NCBI GenBank assembly: GCA_014523485.1
Contig: JAATVK010000040.1
Coordinates: 1 to 10,607 of the forward strand
Origin: Nitrososphaerales archaeon TH5894
GTDB lineage: Archaea; Thermoproteota; Nitrososphaeria; Nitrososphaerales; Nitrososphaeraceae
DNA length: 10,607 bases
Reading direction: 5' to 3'
Shown: positions 1 to 6,899 of the stretch, piece by piece
Numbering within the stretch: position 1 is the first letter of the stretch
How the letters are laid out: each line of letters starts with the position of its first letter
The notes under the pieces: model-generated
What the model saw: the letters and a program-made list of their open reading frames with translations, nothing else
Database searches by the model: none
What the model was told of the DNA's origin: nothing
Position numbers and translations under genes: made by a program

Positions 1-210
1 GCATTTGGATATAGATTAAATATTCCTGCAGGAACTTCTATAAGATTTGAACCAGGAGATTCTCGTGAAGTAGAACTTTGTGAACTTGGAGGAAAAAAAA
101 TCGTTTATGGATTCAATGGTCTTACTATGGGAGGACTAAAATCGACAAATGCTAAACAAGCTGCCCTTGAAAAAGCAAAAACACTTGGTTTCAAGGGATG
201 TAGTTCTTAG
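1..210 (+). CDS. ureB: Urease beta subunit UreB, C-terminal part (5' end outside window)
   Basis: This is the last 69 codons of the small structural subunit of urease, which with UreA and UreC forms the cytoplasmic nickel enzyme that hydrolyses urea to ammonia and carbamate. The frame is open from the first base to TAG at 208-210. The first residues, [19 protein letters not shown], match the conserved UreB core ([17 protein letters not shown] in Klebsiella), followed by REVEL and [11 protein letters not shown]. After the GGL, where short bacterial UreB proteins end, about 23 more residues follow ([12 protein letters not shown] near the end). This resembles the extended tails of some other beta subunits and is not a sign of damage. 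The stop lies 17 bases before ureC, so the two are surely cotranscribed. Whether ureA is separate or fused cannot be seen here. Confidence 0.95.
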
Positions 211-227: not shown

Positions 228-1955
228 ATGGTTTTAAAATTAACTAGAAAACAATATACTGATCTTTTTGGTGCCTCTCAAGGAGATAAGATCAGATTGG
301 GAGATACTGATATTATTATAGAGGTTGAAAAAGATCTGATCTCTCCAGGTGATGAATGTGTTTTTGGAGGAGGAAAAACAATTAGAGATGGGCTTGCCCA
401 GGCATCAGGAGTTACCAATGCTAATGGTGCACTTGATTATGTAATTACAAATGCTGTTGTTCTTGATCCAATGGTTGGTATAGTTAAAGGAGATATTGGT
501 ATAAAGGATGGAAAAATTGCAGGAATTGGCAAGGCAGGGAATCCGTTAGTAATGGACAATGTAACTTCAAACATGATAGTTTCTGCCTGTACAGAGGCTA
601 CTGCGGGAGAGCACACAATATGTACACCAGGACATTGGGATACCCATGTCCATATGATATCTCCCCAACAATATACAGATGCAATAAGTAATGGCATTAC
701 TACCATGATCGGTGGAGGTACTGGTCCAGCTGATGGGACAGCTGCAACGACTTGCACTCCTGGTGTATTCAATATAAGCAGAATGATGGAAAGTGTAGAA
801 GATATTCCAATAAATTGGGGATTTCTTGGTAAAGGTAATGATTCTCATCCATCACTTGCTACGCTATTAGAACAGATCGAAGCTGGAGCATGCGGACTAA
901 AAGATCACGAGGATTGGGGTACCACTAACGCTGTTTTAGATGCATCACTTCGTGCTGTAGATGCCACTGATACACAATTAGCAATTCATACTGATTCAAT
1001 CAATGAGTGTGGATATGTAGAGGATACAATTAATGCAATAGACGGAAGAACAGTACATACATATCATACAGAAGGAGCAGGTGGAGGACATGCACCAGAT
1101 ATTATGAAAATAGCAGGAGAACAATTTGCTCTTCCTTCATCGACCAATCCAACTAGACCATATACTGTTAATACAGTCGATGAGCATTTAGATATGTTAA
1201 TGTTTTGTCATCACTTGAATCCAGCAGTCGCTGAAGATGTTGCCTTTGCAGAATCTAGGATTCGAGCAGAAACAATTGCTGCGGAAGATGTCTTACATGA
1301 CGAAGGTGTGTTGAGCATGTATTCTTCTGATAGTCAAGCTATGGGTCGAATAGGTGAAGTGGTTATTCGTGCATGGCAGACTGCCGACAAAATGAAAAAG
1401 ATGAAAGGAAAATTAGCAGAAGAAACAGGAGATAATGATAATATCAGAGCAAAAAGGTATATTGCCAAAACTACTATAAACTGTGCAATTACACATGGAG
1501 CTGCAGATGCTCTCGGTTCTCTTGAAGTTGGCAAATATGCAGATCTAGTAATGTATCCGACTGCGTTCTTTGGTGCAAAGCCAAAAATGATATTTAAAGG
1601 AGGCTTTATCGCTTGGTCGATAATGGGAGACACTAATGCATCCATACCAACCCCAGAACCTGTTTACTATAGACCAATGTTTGGAGCTTTAGGCAAAGCA
1701 GTAAAACGAACATCAATGACGTTTACATCTAAAGCAGCAGTCAACCTTGACGTAGGCAAAAAACTTGGATTAGAAAAGAGTCTCTTTCCTGTCCATAATT
1801 GTAGAAATATTGGTAAAAATGATATGGTTTGGAATAACAAGACCCCCGAAATTAGCATTGATCCCGAGACATATGAAGTTAAACTCGATGGAAAAATTGC
1901 AACTGTTGATCCAGCAAAGGAACTAGCTTTAGCACAAAGATACTTTATGGCATAG
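228..1955 (+). CDS. ureC: Urease alpha (catalytic) subunit UreC
   Basis: This is the catalytic subunit of urease, an amidohydrolase-type TIM barrel with a two-nickel centre; it releases ammonia and CO2 from urea. At 575 residues it has the usual length (about 570). All residues known to be required are present: H140 and H142 (HxH nickel ligands), K225 (the lysine that becomes carbamylated and bridges both nickels), H227 (substrate binding), H254 and H280 (nickel ligands), the flap pair C327/H328 in MFCHHL, and D368 in SSDSQAMGR. The [22 protein letters not shown] and [12 protein letters not shown] blocks are typical. Two changes stand out next to the ligands: PGHWDTHVH where bacterial and plant enzymes have PGGIDTHIH or similar, and LKDHEDWG where LK(I/L)HEDWG is usual. 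ATG at 228 gives the standard N-terminus ([12 protein letters not shown]). A T-rich terminator-like tract follows. Confidence 0.98.
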
Positions 1956-1993
1956 GGATAAAGAAAAAAAATTTCCCATTTTTTTGTTTTTTT
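1955..1993 (+). terminator. T-rich transcription terminator after ureC
   Basis: Directly after the ureC stop, a weak GGGA/TCCC hairpin (1955-1958 with 1974-1977) with an A-rich loop is followed by seven T, one G and seven T (1979-1993). Oligo-T tracts are sufficient for termination by archaeal RNA polymerase. A promoter-like TATA box follows at once, so at least part of the ureABC transcripts probably end here. Termination could be partial. Confidence 0.55.
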
Positions 1994-1997
1994 ATTA

Positions 1998-2031
1998 TTT
2001 AGATATATACCTCTTCTAAAGATTATATATT
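1998..2031 (+). promoter_or_regulatory. TATA-like promoter of the chaperonin-urease accessory block
   Basis: The sequence TTTAGATATATAC (1998-2010) is centred about 27 bases before the ATG at 2032, the spacing expected when transcription begins at or beside the start codon. No Shine-Dalgarno is visible between it and the ATG. This suggests a leaderless message beginning with the chaperonin and running into ureE, ureF, ureG and ureD. Confidence 0.55.
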
Positions 2032-3588
2032 ATGTCTAGTCTTAATCATGGAGTTTGGAGACCTATAGCTGAAAATGTTGAATTTAATGCTTTAGAATCA
2101 AATTCGCAGGCAGTAATGGCAGTTGCAGATACAGTAAGGACCACTTTGGGGCCAAAAGGTTTAGATAAACTCTTAATAGATCAAGCGATGAATAGGCACG
2201 TTTCAAATGATGGTGTAACCATTCTTCTCTCTTTAAAGGCAATTCATCCAGTTGCAAGGATGATAGTAGAAATCGCAGAAAGACAGGAGCAATTAGTGGG
2301 TGATGGGACCACTACTGCAGTAGTGATGGCATCAGAAATGATAAAAGAAGGTAAGAGGCTTATTAAAGAACTTGGAGTTCATCCTACGAAAGTAGTTGAG
2401 GGAATAGAAAATGGAGTAAAACATGCATGTAAAATTTTAGAAAAAGATGCCAAAAAAATATCTCTTGAAGATAAAGAATTGGAGCAAATTATAAAAACTT
2501 CCTTATCTTCAAAATTAGATGGTATTAACTTATCGGAGTTAGTAATAAAATCAATTAGGACAGTAGGAAATAATTCAATATATAATAATTTATTTGATTT
2601 TGATAAATCAATTAAAGTAATTAGAAAAACTAACGTTTCTGATACTGTTTTCAATGGTGTGGTTTTGGAAAGAAAACGTATGGATCAAGAAATGCCAATG
2701 CGAATATTAAAGCCTAAAATAATGATCGTTAAACTTGACTTAAAACCTGTAAAAGAATCTTGGTTGAAAGAAAATAATCGTTATGAAGAAATTTTAAATA
2801 TGGAAAATGATAGGTTGCTAAAATCTAAAAAAATTGTAAATGAAATTGTGGTTACTGGTGCTAATACTCTTCTAATATCTTCTCCAGAGGTAGATGAAGT
2901 TATAGAGAACCTCTTAGTGTCCAAAAATATCTTTGCAACAAGAATATCTTCTGATGAAATAGAATTTTTATCTAGATATACTGGTGCAAAACCTGTTCGG
3001 ATGATGGAAGATCTTAAGAACAATGGCATTCTTGGAAATGCTGACTCTATATACGAAGATGAAGATACTGGACTTATTTATATTGAAAATGGTTCTGGTA
3101 AAAATATAGTTACAATCATAGTCTCTGGAACAACTAAGGAAACTTCTCTTGAAAGATGGAGATCTGTTATTGATGGTGTCAATGCCTCAGAAGCTGCATT
3201 GAATAGAGGAATAGTTGCTGGTGGAGGAGCGGCAGAAATACATGTAATTGAAAAGTTAAAGAGCCTACGATTAAAGGGACTAGAACAAGTAGGGCTCGAT
3301 GTTGTAGCGTCAGCATTAGAAAGTATCATGCGACAGATCCTAACTAATGCTGGATTCAATGGATTAGAAAAAGTAATGGCAGCTAAAGCATCAAAACTAA
3401 ACATGGGAATTGATATTGACACAGGAGAGCTGGTAAATATGTTTGAAAACGGAATCCTAGATCCTCTATTGGTTAAATTAATGGCTCTTGAGGCAGCTGG
3501 CGAAATTTCAAAATCCGTTTTAAGGATAGATAGAAACCTTGCTGCAGAAGATCTTAGTCAGCAAAGTGTATCGGAAATTAAGAGGTAA
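2032..3588 (+). CDS. Divergent archaeal-type chaperonin (Cpn60/TCP-1 family), group III-like
   Basis: This is an ATP-driven double-ring chaperonin subunit of 518 residues, against about 545 for normal thermosome subunits. The equatorial ATP site is intact: TTLGPKG (37-43), NDGVTIL (59-65), GDGTTT (90-95, with D91), D381 as the probable catalytic aspartate, GGGAAE (397-402) and GIDIDTGE (459-466). The apical region includes the RMDQEMP segment (216-222) and a helical-protrusion stretch (about 240-270), as in group II chaperonins that close with a built-in lid. Unlike common thermosomes it has no glycine/methionine-rich tail and ends SEIKR. The 15 residues between D381 and GGG match GroEL spacing, one fewer than in thermosomes as I recall them. 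GPKGLD, NDGVTIL, NAGFNGLEKV and ALEAAGEI recall group III chaperonins described from Firmicutes. It lies between ureC and ureE with its own promoter, so urease or its accessory proteins are the inferred clients. It is unlikely to be the cell's main thermosome. Confidence 0.9.
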   Translation: MSSLNHGVWRPIAENVEFNALESNSQAVMAVADTVRTTLGPKGLDKLLIDQAMNRHVSNDGVTILLSLKAIHPVARMIVEIAERQEQLVGDGTTTAVVMASEMIKEGKRLIKELGVHPTKVVEGIENGVKHACKILEKDAKKISLEDKELEQIIKTSLSSKLDGINLSELVIKSIRTVGNNSIYNNLFDFDKSIKVIRKTNVSDTVFNGVVLERKRMDQEMPMRILKPKIMIVKLDLKPVKESWLKENNRYEEILNMENDRLLKSKKIVNEIVVTGANTLLISSPEVDEVIENLLVSKNIFATRISSDEIEFLSRYTGAKPVRMMEDLKNNGILGNADSIYEDEDTGLIYIENGSGKNIVTIIVSGTTKETSLERWRSVIDGVNASEAALNRGIVAGGGAAEIHVIEKLKSLRLKGLEQVGLDVVASALESIMRQILTNAGFNGLEKVMAAKASKLNMGIDIDTGELVNMFENGILDPLLVKLMALEAAGEISKSVLRIDRNLAAEDLSQQSVSEIKR

Positions 3589-3598
3589 ATGATGTAAT

Positions 3599-3994
3599 AT
3601 GCAAATCCGCCATTGTGTTGAAGAAAATAATGTGGATGAAAACCTGATTATCAAAAAACCTAAAGAAATTAGACATATAATAGCACAAGGAGGTAAAATA
3701 AAACAAATGTCAGGATTTATTGATCCTAGATCTCATCTTAATCTTGACTATCCTTTACATCGCGTCACCAAATGCGTAATAGCAAAAAAATTTGAAATAG
3801 GATCCGAATTGCTTTTTACCGGTTCTGGATTTACCTTTGCTATGGTAACTAAATCTCATTTTGAACATTATGGATACATAGATTATACAAAAAATCTTAC
3901 AGAAATGATAAATAAAGTCAATGATTTAAGAAACTCAAAATCCATTTATACAAGCAATCTTAAAAAATGTGATATAGAAGGGAATCTAAAGTAA
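3599..3994 (+). CDS. Unrecognised 131-residue protein of the urease accessory block
   Basis: I do not recognise this family. The protein is small, soluble-looking and basic, with no signal peptide or membrane segment. A mixed, probably alpha/beta core runs from about residue 18 (KKPKEIRHIIAQGG) to 95, and a helical tail with NLTEMINKVNDLRN covers about 99-112. Histidines and cysteines are fairly frequent (H5-C6, H26, H46, H54, C59, H87, H90, C124), including SHFEHYGY, so metal binding is possible but unproven. The ATG at 3599 is 10 bases after the chaperonin stop and is preceded by GAGG at 3582-3585. The stop is a single base before ureE. This tight packing between a chaperonin and UreE suggests a part in urease maturation or nickel handling, or an adaptor for the chaperonin. 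That is inference from position only. Confidence 0.8.
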   Translation: MQIRHCVEENNVDENLIIKKPKEIRHIIAQGGKIKQMSGFIDPRSHLNLDYPLHRVTKCVIAKKFEIGSELLFTGSGFTFAMVTKSHFEHYGYIDYTKNLTEMINKVNDLRNSKSIYTSNLKKCDIEGNLK

Positions 3995-3995
3995 T

Positions 3996-4511
3996 ATGAT
4001 TACAGTTAATCAAATTTTAGGTAATATCAATCAAAATTCTAATCTTAGGAAAAAATATGAAGAGATGTTAAAAAATAATCTTTGCGAAAGAGTAGTAATA
4101 ACTAGAATGGAATCAGAAAAATTAAGAATGAGAAAAAGTACAGATAAGAAAACTGATGTTGCTTTTATATTTGAACATAATCCGAATTTAAGAAATAATG
4201 ATATAATTTTTATGGATGACAACAAAATGATATTGCTGACACTTGAATCAGAGTCTGTAGCTATAATTACCTTCAAAGGTTACGAAAATAAAGAAAATAT
4301 TTTTCCACTCTCTGTTAAGATTGGACATCGCCTTGGTAATTTACATCGACCTATAAAGGTAACAAAAAATCAAGTAATTTTTCCATTGCAAGCTGAAACA
4401 GAACTGGAAATGCTAAAAAAGATGTTTTCATCATTTAATCAATTCATGGATATTCGAAGTGAGAACATGATCTTTGAACCAGATGAGGGATCAAATATTC
4501 ATGAGCACTAG
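3996..4511 (+). CDS. ureE: Urease accessory protein UreE (nickel metallochaperone)
   Basis: UreE is a cytoplasmic dimer that binds nickel and hands it to UreG during urease maturation. The protein has 171 residues, somewhat longer than the usual 150. The N-terminal, peptide-binding-like domain shows NQILGN (5-10) and RVVITRMESEKLRMRKS (32-48), aligned with the RxRxRV strand of other UreE proteins. The C-terminal metal-binding domain contains KIGHRLGNLHRPI (108-120). H117 corresponds to the conserved histidine at the dimer interface that holds nickel (H96 in Klebsiella). The long C-terminal histidine tail of some bacterial UreE proteins is reduced here to IHEH (H169, H171). ATG at 3996 is one base after the preceding stop, with GAAGGG 14 bases upstream. 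Its last codons overlap the start of ureF by 11 bases, pointing to translational coupling. Confidence 0.93.
   Translation: MITVNQILGNINQNSNLRKKYEEMLKNNLCERVVITRMESEKLRMRKSTDKKTDVAFIFEHNPNLRNNDIIFMDDNKMILLTLESESVAIITFKGYENKENIFPLSVKIGHRLGNLHRPIKVTKNQVIFPLQAETELEMLKKMFSSFNQFMDIRSENMIFEPDEGSNIHEH
4485..4490 (+). promoter_or_regulatory. Ribosome binding site that selects the ureF start
   Basis: GAGGGA lies 10 bases before ATG 4501 and inside ureE. It sits 3' of the earlier in-frame ATG at 4474, so it favours 4501 over 4474 as the ureF start. ATG 4546 has no comparable site. Confidence 0.55.
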
Positions 4512-5277
4512 ATTTAGTAATAAAATAGACGTTATTGATAATAATATGAAACATCATCACGCTCATGATCCTACCACCTGTGAGGATCCACTTATAGATG
4601 AGGTTAGTATGCTTCAGCTTGGAGATTCATTCTTCCCTACTGGAATGTATACCACGTCAAGTGGTCTAGAAACATTATTTTATGATAAAAGGATCAAAAC
4701 CAAGCAAGAAATCATAGAATTTATAACAGTTTGTTTACAATATCAAATAGGACCAGCTGATTGTGCCGCTCTCTCTAATGCATATGACTTTGCTAAAGAG
4801 CAAAATATTTCTAAAATAATAGAAATAGATCATATTCTGTTTTCAATGAAATTAATAAAAGAGATTCGTGAGGCTTCAATACGCTCAGGAAGACAACTTT
4901 TGAATTGTTTATTGAGCTTTGTTCCAGATAATAATTTAATTGCTTCATATTATACATCAATAAAGAATAAGACTGCAAATGGTACATATCCGGTTGCACT
5001 AGCACTGGCCTCAAATAGTTTAAATATAAAGAAAGAACGTGCATGTCTCATTTTATTGTATGGATTTACAGTTAGTGTCACAGGTGCGGCACTTAGACTT
5101 GGAATGTTACAACATTTTGAAGGACAACAGGTTATTCATGAGCTAAAACCAATTATGGGAAATGTTTTAAACAACAATATAACGAGACATTACTCCCAGT
5201 TATGGCAGTTTAGTCCCAGTGTAGATCTAGTTCAAATGACACATGAAAGAATGGATTCGAAAATGTTTATTACATAA
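4501..5277 (+). CDS. ureF: Urease accessory protein UreF
   Basis: UreF is an all-helical protein that, with UreD, recruits the UreG dimer and gates nickel insertion into apo-urease. With the start at 4501 it has 258 residues (most are 220-240). The family opening is seen as LQLGDSFFPTGMYTTSSGLE (38-57), matching LLQLxSPxLPVGGFxYSxGLE, followed by helices with GPADCAALSNAY and the late TGAALRLGMLQH block. The SHGLE/SQGLE histidine or glutamine is serine here. An unusual histidine cluster, KHHHAHD (17-23), with a nearby cysteine, precedes the family core and may bind nickel. ATG 4501 is chosen for its ribosome site (4485-4490) and an 11-base overlap with ureE. ATG 4546, right before the histidine cluster, is an alternative that would keep it. 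Confidence 0.9.
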   Translation: MSTRFSNKIDVIDNNMKHHHAHDPTTCEDPLIDEVSMLQLGDSFFPTGMYTTSSGLETLFYDKRIKTKQEIIEFITVCLQYQIGPADCAALSNAYDFAKEQNISKIIEIDHILFSMKLIKEIREASIRSGRQLLNCLLSFVPDNNLIASYYTSIKNKTANGTYPVALALASNSLNIKKERACLILLYGFTVSVTGAALRLGMLQHFEGQQVIHELKPIMGNVLNNNITRHYSQLWQFSPSVDLVQMTHERMDSKMFIT

Positions 5278-5298: not shown

Positions 5299-5973
5299 AT
5301 GACGTTTAAAAGAATTCCTAGAGTCGGTATTGGTGGCCCAGTAGGTTCTGGTAAGACGATGTTAATAGAACAATTTGTTCCATTATTAAGTCAAATAGGG
5401 TATAGAGTTGCTATTATTTCCAATGATGTAGTATCAAAAGAAGACGCTGATAGAATGAGAAGAAATTTGGCGTCAGAAAGAGGGCTTATGCCTGAAAGTC
5501 TAGTAATTGGTTTAGCCACAGGTGGATGTCCCCATACTGCAGTGAGAGAAGATCCTTCCATGAATCTTTCTGTAGTTGAAGATATTGAATCAGCTCATAA
5601 TGAAGAGTTGGATTTAATAATTATTGAAAGTGGTGGAGACAATATTACAACCACATTTAGCCCTGCTCTTGCTGATTATTTCATCTATATTATTGATGTC
5701 TCTGGAGGAGATAAATATCCACGAAAACGTGGTCTTGGCATTGAAAACTGTGATCTATTGGTAATTAATAAAATTGATCTAGCACCATATGTGGGAGCAG
5801 ATCTCAAGGCAATGGAACGCGATGCCAAATTAATTAGAAAGGATAAACCTTTTGTTTTTGTAAACTGTAAAACTGGCAAAGGAATTAAAGAAGTAGCAGA
5901 TAATATCGTGAAAAATGTATTATTTGAATTACCACCAAAAAAAAACGAGAAAAAAACTGAAAAAATGACTTGA
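5299..5973 (+). CDS. ureG: Urease accessory GTPase UreG
   Basis: UreG is a SIMIBI-class GTPase whose GTP-dependent dimer carries one nickel ion and delivers it to urease through the UreF/UreD complex. The 224 residues show GPVGSGKT (13-20, P-loop), SNDVVSKEDADRM (41-53, switch region; NDIYTKEDA is common elsewhere), ATGGCPHTAVRED (73-85) with the nickel-binding C77-P-H79, ESGGDN (110-115), SGGDKYPRKRGLGI (135-148) and NKID (157-160, guanine specificity). The C-terminal tail (212-224) is lysine-rich (PPKKNEKKTEK) and extends past the usual end. There is no N-terminal histidine stretch. The gene begins 21 bases after ureF, and no Shine-Dalgarno is visible in that gap, unlike its neighbours. The stop overlaps the ureD start. 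Confidence 0.97.
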   Translation: MTFKRIPRVGIGGPVGSGKTMLIEQFVPLLSQIGYRVAIISNDVVSKEDADRMRRNLASERGLMPESLVIGLATGGCPHTAVREDPSMNLSVVEDIESAHNEELDLIIIESGGDNITTTFSPALADYFIYIIDVSGGDKYPRKRGLGIENCDLLVINKIDLAPYVGADLKAMERDAKLIRKDKPFVFVNCKTGKGIKEVADNIVKNVLFELPPKKNEKKTEKMT

Positions 5974-6899
5974 ACGAACTAGAATATTTTATTCCAGACG
6001 ATATACCTCAGGAAGTATTATGTTACGAATCTGATCTTAGTCAACTAGGTGTTGGAAAAGCCGGAAAATTAGGGGCCATTTTTTTACTACTAGAAAAAAA
6101 TGATAAAGTAAATAAAACAGTTATCAAGGAACAATATTCAAAAGTACCTTTATTTACCCAAAGAGCTCTGTATCTTGAAGAAAGTCTTCCTTCTATGGCC
6201 TATATTTATATAATTTCTCCATCTGGGGGAATACTACAAGGTGATAGGTATAGAATTGATATAAAATTAGCTAAAAATGCAGTAGCCCATATAACTACTC
6301 AAGGCGCCACTAGGCTGTATAGAATGGATAAAAATTTTGCTACACAAATCTTGAATATATCATTAGAGAATAATTGCTATCTTGAATATGTTCCTGATCA
6401 AATAATCCCTTATAGAGACTCACGATTTTATCAAGCTGTAAATCTTAATGTAAATGATGATGCAACTTTAATTTATTCTGAAACTATAGTTCCTGGTCGG
6501 ATGGCCATGGGTGAGTATTTTGATTATGATGTATGTTATTTAAAGACTATAGCCAAAAGCCATAGTGGGTCATTAAAGCTTGTTGACACAGCATTACTAG
6601 AACCAAAAAAAAATCAATTAAAACGATTTGGGCTTCTCGAAGCATTTAATATGTTCTCAAATATGTATTTATTAGTTCCATATAAGTATGTAAATATCCT
6701 AAATGAAAAAATCAGCGAGGATCTAATTAATTACAATAAAGTACTAGCAAGGTGTTCAATATTACCTAATGATTCTGGATTAGTAGTGAGAATACTAGGT
6801 AACATGATTGATAATATCAAAGAAGTCACGCATCATATACTTAAAATCTGTAGGCAGGAAATTCTGGGAGCTGGATTTAGCGGTATTAGGAAGAATTGA
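5970..6899 (+). CDS. ureD: Urease accessory protein UreD (UreH), TTG start
   Basis: UreD is the scaffold that binds apo-urease and, with UreF and UreG, forms the channel for nickel transfer. The protein has 309 residues, somewhat longer than the usual 270. Typical blocks are SPSGGILQGDRYRIDI (about 88-103; PPGGxxxGD in the family), ITTQGATRLYRM (about 108-119), LEYVPDQIIPYRDSRF (about 134-149) and the late AGFSGIRKN end. The frame has a TGA at 5958-5960 and no ATG until codon 76, inside the conserved core. TTG at 5970 is therefore the only sensible start. It shares TTGA with the ureG stop, a four-base overlap that implies translational coupling. The conserved similarity starts around residue 30, so the first 30 residues are a lineage-specific extension. 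Confidence 0.92.
   Translation: MNELEYFIPDDIPQEVLCYESDLSQLGVGKAGKLGAIFLLLEKNDKVNKTVIKEQYSKVPLFTQRALYLEESLPSMAYIYIISPSGGILQGDRYRIDIKLAKNAVAHITTQGATRLYRMDKNFATQILNISLENNCYLEYVPDQIIPYRDSRFYQAVNLNVNDDATLIYSETIVPGRMAMGEYFDYDVCYLKTIAKSHSGSLKLVDTALLEPKKNQLKRFGLLEAFNMFSNMYLLVPYKYVNILNEKISEDLINYNKVLARCSILPNDSGLVVRILGNMIDNIKEVTHHILKICRQEILGAGFSGIRKN

Follow-up and report, generated by a model that had tools for sequence, protein, structure and literature searches.

A Group-II-Like Chaperonin Encoded in Urease Gene Clusters of Nitrososphaerales and Anammox Bacteria, Probably Dedicated to Urease Maturation

We found that a chaperonin encoded in the urease gene cluster of the ammonia-oxidizing Nitrososphaerales archaeon TH5894, here designated UreCpn, forms a clade of its own and accompanies urease genes in archaea and in anammox bacteria. 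Judged from gene sequences and their neighborhoods, UreCpn is probably a chaperonin of group-II-like type that serves urease maturation specifically. That archaeal urease loci contain an Hsp60, and that it may have a role in urease, is already known: in the part of the report considered here, Abby et al. 2018 (PMC5797428) describe a specific Hsp60 homologue (arCOG01257) that is conserved in the urease loci of Nitrosocaldus and Nitrososphaerales and absent from Nitrosopumilales. They propose that it stabilizes urease, by analogy with the urease-associated Hsp60 of Helicobacter pylori, and compare it with the Hsp60 that is linked to urease in Haemophilus influenzae. This is evidently the same gene family in the same place as UreCpn; that part of the account, however, contains no companion ORF, link to a kind of UreC, group-II-type anammox member or clade test. 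What is added here is the separate clade, the companion orf131, the tie to one kind of UreC and the bacterial members, none of which was found in the open-licence literature, a body that leaves most subscription journals outside.

Organization of the Urease Genes

The window, i.e., the whole stretch of 10,607 nucleotides that was analysed, contains the following features, all on the + strand.

1..210, +, ureB (urease beta), 3' end, truncated by the window start (PF00699, 61.2 bits, cut-off 25)
228..1955, +, ureC, urease alpha subunit, 575 aa, "type A" (PF00449, PF01979; TIGR01792, 881 bits, cut-off 680)
1956..2031, +, gap between ureC and UreCpn, a candidate terminator and putative promoter of the accessory unit (two 7-T runs, TATATA)
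2032..3588, +, UreCpn, urease-linked group-II-like chaperonin, 518 aa (PF00118, tree, fold, linkage)
3599..3994, +, orf131, 131 aa, uncharacterised companion of UreCpn (conserved columns, co-occurrence, model)
3996..4511, +, ureE (PF02814, 31.1 bits, cut-off 26.9; PF05194, 19.8, below the cut-off of 23)
4546..5277, +, ureF, start unsure (4474, 4501 or 4546) (PF01730, E 1.5e-32)
5299..5973, +, ureG (TIGR00101, 240 bits, cut-off 204)
5970..6899, +, ureD/ureH (PF01774, E 5e-46)

A sequence-only reading had placed a complete Cpn60 gene between ureC and ureE in the same direction. The ORF is indeed complete from ATG to stop on the + strand, but it does not touch ureE, because the conserved 131-codon ORF intervenes, 10 bases after the end of UreCpn and 1 base before ureE. 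The remaining accessory genes named in that reading, ureE, ureF, ureG and ureD, were all recognized downstream on the same strand by domain matches. The gap of 76 bases between ureC and UreCpn contains the two 7-T runs and, 28 bases 5' of the ATG, the TATATA element, suggesting that UreCpn heads its own unit. T-rich stretches and a TTTAT-type element were seen by eye (uncounted) at similar positions in many related loci, and the region 5' of UreCpn looked different by eye in the Nitrosocaldus-like loci. In the window, UreCpn thus probably heads a transcription unit of its own, UreCpn-orf131-ureE-ureF-ureG-ureD, which follows ureABC. All urease operon genes of N. viennensis are upregulated under copper limitation, the portion of that report considered here leaving unstated whether the chaperonin is included (PMC7785015). 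The longest ureF frame begins at 4474, within ureE, and a start at 4546 would give a His-rich N-terminus, MKHHHAHD (4546–4570).

UreCpn Is a Group-II-Type Chaperonin Outside the Thermosomes

The source genome (2.36 Mb) contains three Cpn60-family genes, the third being UreCpn. The protein matched PF00118 (Cpn60_TCP1) with 348.6 bits (E 7e-104, cut-off 34.3) over positions 1–484 of the 490-position profile, which places it in the superfamily. It also matched 17 NCBIfam thermosome, CCT or GroEL models, in every case under the curated cut-off: scores against three thermosome models were 304.4, 300.0 and 293.6 for cut-offs of 671.1, 450 and 400, and the best GroEL score was 163 for a cut-off of 352, outside group I. 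The UreCpn of an anammox contig (L115) likewise remained under the three thermosome cut-offs (292.9, 283.6 and 273.7). UreCpn is an archaeal group-II-type chaperonin, which corrects the earlier reading; the description "divergent" in that reading agrees with these scores and with the 34% and 31% identity of UreCpn to the remaining two Cpn60 proteins encoded in its genome.

A tree was constructed from 60 Cpn60 proteins, comprising 23 UreCpn sequences, 24 thermosomes, seven members of a second unusual chaperonin family (CpnB, see the last section) and six GroELs as the root. All 23 UreCpn sequences formed a single clade with a long stem (support 100/100). The 24 thermosomes and seven CpnB proteins lay on the opposite side of the tree (91/98), so that UreCpn was not among the thermosomes, and the remaining two Cpn60 proteins of the source genome grouped with the latter. 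The exact depth of the UreCpn branch is unsure owing to a program warning that the long branches of GroEL and UreCpn meet. These results bear on the alternative that UreCpn is a third thermosome subunit, a stress chaperonin that joins general rings and lies in the urease operon by chance. It is of the same family, and the two canonical subunits of its own genome would be available to join; the low identity to those very subunits and the separate, long-stemmed clade nevertheless speak against this possibility, which we regard as quite unlikely.

Sequence scores of UreCpn against PDB entries were 285 bits for an ancestral group II construct, 233 for thermosome 1a6d and 198 for 5x9u; by these scores, on which the comparison with group III relies, UreCpn is nearer to the first two. 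We take the group III chaperonin 5x9u/5x9v to be an archaeal-type chaperonin in a bacterium. A structure model of UreCpn computed from 22 sequences (pLDDT 81.8) showed the three-domain group II fold with a helical protrusion, into which the predicted apical helices at 242–247 and 251–274 fit; pLDDT was below 50 at residues 1–12, in the tail and at residues 41–69, an unsure region that includes conserved motifs. The top fold matches in the PDB were group II chaperonins, Mm-cpn being the best (Foldseek E 8.5e-33 to 3izi), and 5x9u/5x9v ranked sixth. The predicted apical helices could form a built-in lid, and the apical stretch is shorter in a deep relative (L034). UreCpn thus shares the Cpn60 fold, apical helices and ATPase motifs with the thermosome and Mm-cpn, and differs from them in its identity of about 30%, its scores below cut-off, its sister-clade position and its association with urease.

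D60, D91 and D381 were present in all 22 UreCpn sequences, position 161 was K in 17 and R in five, and the GDGTT and NDG motifs were retained. We take the three residues to be the ATPase aspartates of chaperonins, and the positions given here are presumably ATPase and sensor sites. This conservation weighs against the idea that UreCpn has lost its folding activity and serves as a scaffold or stabilizer of the finished urease particle. Such a role would be consistent with the C-terminus, which is devoid of the Gly/Met-rich tail of the thermosomes in the same genome, as well as with the stabilization proposed in the considered part of PMC5797428 on the analogy of the H. pylori Hsp60. We consider it unlikely.

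Linkage of UreCpn to One Kind of Urease in Nitrososphaeria

We searched 400 Nitrososphaeria genomes, drawn evenly from the larger group, for UreCpn and UreC. At a threshold of E 1e-66, UreCpn matched in 43 genomes: 39 at 69–100% identity, one (G118) at 42% and three at 34–36%. The last three (G079, G087, G093) were dropped as thermosomes, since the proteins of L048 and L049 exceeded NCBIfam thermosome cut-offs, with G093 assigned by inference. The 39 genomes contained 40 UreCpn matches, one gene (in G040) being in two pieces. UreC matches were obtained in 141 of the 400 genomes and were sorted by identity to the UreC of the window into type A (at least 78%; 37 genomes) and less similar kinds (107 genomes), both occurring in three.

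As many as 36 of the 40 UreCpn matches were located 74–433 bp from a type A UreC. The other four (G060, G037, G039 and the second piece in G040) were on contigs with no UreC match, and three of the 39 UreCpn genomes, the fragmented bins G037, G039 and G060, had no UreC match at all. That UreCpn stands away from urease genes only in these four of 40 cases, where the contig shows no UreC, is a further point against a general thermosome subunit. Conversely, UreCpn was present in 36 of the 37 genomes with type A UreC. The contig of the exception, G056 (L043), stops 63 bases past ureC, and may be a stray one, since its UreC is 96% like that of the window. UreCpn was not found at E 1e-66 in 103 of the 107 genomes with other kinds of UreC; the four others were G043 and G026, in which it lies beside a type A copy, G056, which also has type A, and G118, with the 42% relative. 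No UreCpn match was obtained in family f2, which is probably Nitrosopumilaceae as inferred. On these counts, the association of UreCpn with urease is too regular for chance.

G043 and G026 contain both kinds of urease: a type A cluster that includes UreCpn and orf131 and, at a distance of about 22 kb and 19 kb, respectively, type B ureABC genes (L039/L040; L041/L042). The presence of two urease kinds in one archaeal family, with and without UreCpn and both in these two genomes, makes the question of how client specificity arises directly testable.

A UreC tree was built from 40 of 67 sequences that aligned over more than 500 residues and contained no more than one stop, near-copies or unchosen sequences being omitted and L095 excluded by the length/stop rule. 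Type A (13 sequences) and type B (15 sequences, the largest other set) were sister clades (98/96), and the UreCs of anammox bacteria and deep archaea were sister to both (96/94); the root is unsure, since the five plasmid outgroup references did not form one clade. The presence of UreCpn requires two changes on this tree, e.g., a gain in the common ancestor and a loss in type B. Neither UreCpn nor orf131 was found in the type B lineage, so that this class of enzyme does not generally need a dedicated chaperonin.

UreCpn in Anammox Bacteria and Other Archaea

Genome contigs were scanned with an alignment of ten UreCpn sequences, which yielded 78 loci, from the best 80 of 240 relatives. Among these best relatives, UreCpn loci were set apart at 37% identity or more, the rest being at 33% or less; L127 and L129 of the latter group were rejected as UreCpn, being annotated thermosomes. 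Ten loci of at least 37% identity bore the title of another group or, in the case of L124, were below 64% identity (L091, L107, L115–L119, L121, L124 and L125), and urease genes lay beside UreCpn in all ten (L124 is the contig of L034). In the eight loci extending past UreCpn (L107, L115–L119, L121 and L125), ureF, ureG and ureD were adjacent in every case, together with ureABC in five (L115, L117, L118, L119 and L125). We found orf131 in L107, L115, L117, L118, L119 and L125, and the contig of L091 ends in it; it was not found in L116, whose contig begins in ureF, or in L121, where the gene 5' of ureE is unrelated.

Judged by their titles, the UreCpn loci from outside the ammonia oxidizers come from metagenome assemblies, and the bacterial ones are anammox (Scalindua, Brocadia). 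L118 is titled Neomarinimicrobiota and is nearly equal to L117, so that its title may not fit the gene content, and L107 (Thermoplasmata title) and L091 (Nitrospirae title, 76%) may be misbinned. In G118, which belongs to the class of the window but to another family, UreCpn was found with ureD, ureG, ureF and ureE on L034, and ureC-orf131 on L035. Urease clusters with the UreCpn-orf131 pair accordingly occur in anammox bacteria and also in two other lineages of archaea. The close homologues examined stood among urease genes wherever the contig reached far enough, in archaea and anammox bacteria alike, which was the neighborhood comparison that the sequence-only reading had put forward for dedication.

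Three gene orders were observed: ureC-UreCpn-orf131-ureE-ureF-ureG-ureD in ammonia-oxidizing archaea; ureABC-orf131-ureE-ureF-ureG-ureD-UreCpn, followed in most by a transporter, in anammox bacteria; and ureABC-orf131-ureE-ureF-ureG-ureD facing UreCpn in L125, an order which L034 fits. Among 62 genomes from the order that includes Scalindua G408, which we take to be Brocadiales, UreCpn was present in five, UreC in four and both in three. The other 57 had no UreCpn, and 56 of them no UreC match; G434 has a different UreC (66%) and no UreCpn, and the contig of G411 is cut. A Scalindua MAG, G410 (L121/L201), carries ureEFGD-UreCpn-transporter; upstream of these genes there is neither ureABC nor orf131, and the bin as a whole gave no UreC match. 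Of 120 genomes in the order to which G414 (the bin containing L125) belongs, one had UreCpn.

All six other Cpn60 proteins scanned from anammox bins (one from the L118 bin) were GroELs over the cut-off, and the single archaeal-type Cpn60 gene of the anammox genomes is located in the urease cluster, again at odds with a subunit of general thermosome rings. We found no report linking anammox urease to a thermosome in the open-licence literature, most subscription journals lying outside it. The patchy distribution across domains, as in the order of G414, might be taken to mean that UreCpn and orf131 are a selfish or hitchhiking pair that moves with the urease island and has no urease role. This appears very improbable, as the pair is retained in three gene orders, is mostly single copy per genome with its motifs retained, and shows no clear loss among the 37 genomes with type A UreC.

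The Companion Protein orf131

The orf131 members scanned had no Pfam or NCBIfam match. A profile search detected orf131 in 39 of the 400 Nitrososphaeria genomes, all within the 40 UreCpn genomes (the 39 and G118); in the fortieth, G004, the contig end cuts inside UreCpn (L112). In an alignment of 27 sequences, H5, H26, H46, H54 and D95 were invariant, D50 was present in 26, and H90 and C59 in 25. The model of the window's orf131 (pLDDT 86.9) had no fold match in the PDB, nor had its sequence any match there. The conserved histidines are consistent with a metal-binding role, and the five of them make orf131 a better candidate than UreCpn for nickel handling. It represents an added candidate maturation factor for urease in soil nitrifiers and some anammox bacteria.

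Proposed Role of UreCpn

UreCpn co-occurs with urease genes in the manner of a urease accessory factor, the exceptions being the bins G037, G039 and G060, which lack a UreC match, and G410, which lacks ureABC. In our preferred reading, namely a chaperonin for urease maturation, UreCpn would assemble into a separate ATP-driven double ring from which the two housekeeping thermosome subunits are absent, and would take in a client of the urease pathway. It would fold or hold this client while UreE, UreF, UreG and UreD load nickel, and then release it, with orf131 as a possible adaptor or metal-handling partner. We lean toward UreD/UreF, or their complex with apo-urease, as the client rather than UreC alone, because, whichever of the three gene orders is considered, UreCpn either adjoins ureD or stands first among the accessory genes, and because one anammox contig keeps UreCpn with ureEFGD in the absence of ureABC. 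The sequence-only reading had suggested a client-specific chaperonin or, alternatively, a part in nickel-dependent assembly; dedication to urease is upheld by the linkage in archaea and anammox bacteria, whereas the nickel role was not borne out for the chaperonin itself.

It is also possible, although we put this forward only tentatively, that UreCpn and orf131 constitute a two-part maturation module shared between domains. In such a module, a chaperonin sister to the thermosomes would have evolved for one nickel enzyme, the small histidine-conserved protein would deliver or check the metal or hand over the client at the chamber, and the second urease branch would have lost the module.

Chaperonins are usually generalists. 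MmoG is a GroEL-type chaperonin whose gene lies in the operon of methane monooxygenase, the metalloenzyme it supposedly serves. UreCpn resembles it as a chaperonin gene inside a metalloenzyme operon, but MmoG is of the GroEL type and is associated with another enzyme and another metal. A chaperonin clade beside the genes of one enzyme in two domains offers a natural system for studying the origin of client specificity.

A Second Unusual Chaperonin and Its Neighbors

We also noticed CpnB, a second unusual thermosome-type chaperonin with 67 matches (e.g., L040:6263–7978, L045:14610–16307, L052:6254–7987 and L191:15470–17164), which is 22–27% identical to UreCpn and 38–47% to three thermosomes. 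At E 1e-150, it was found in 66 of the 400 genomes: 48 of the 107 with non-type-A UreC, as compared with 18 of the 293 others. A non-type-A UreC lay within 25 kb of 34 of the 67 matches. A His-rich C-terminal tail was conserved in all 26 loci listed, and its sequence suggests binding of nickel or another metal. An arginase-family ureohydrolase (PF00491) shared the stretch with CpnB in 14 of 16 cases (e.g., L191:9462–10978), and a urease-gamma-like protein was present in 12 of the 16 (in L191, 133 aa; PF00547, 30.7 bits, cut-off 23.9); the stretch of L191 also contains an SSF transporter. The ureohydrolase beside the UreA-like paralogue is possibly a guanidinase, and this odd pairing is worth study.
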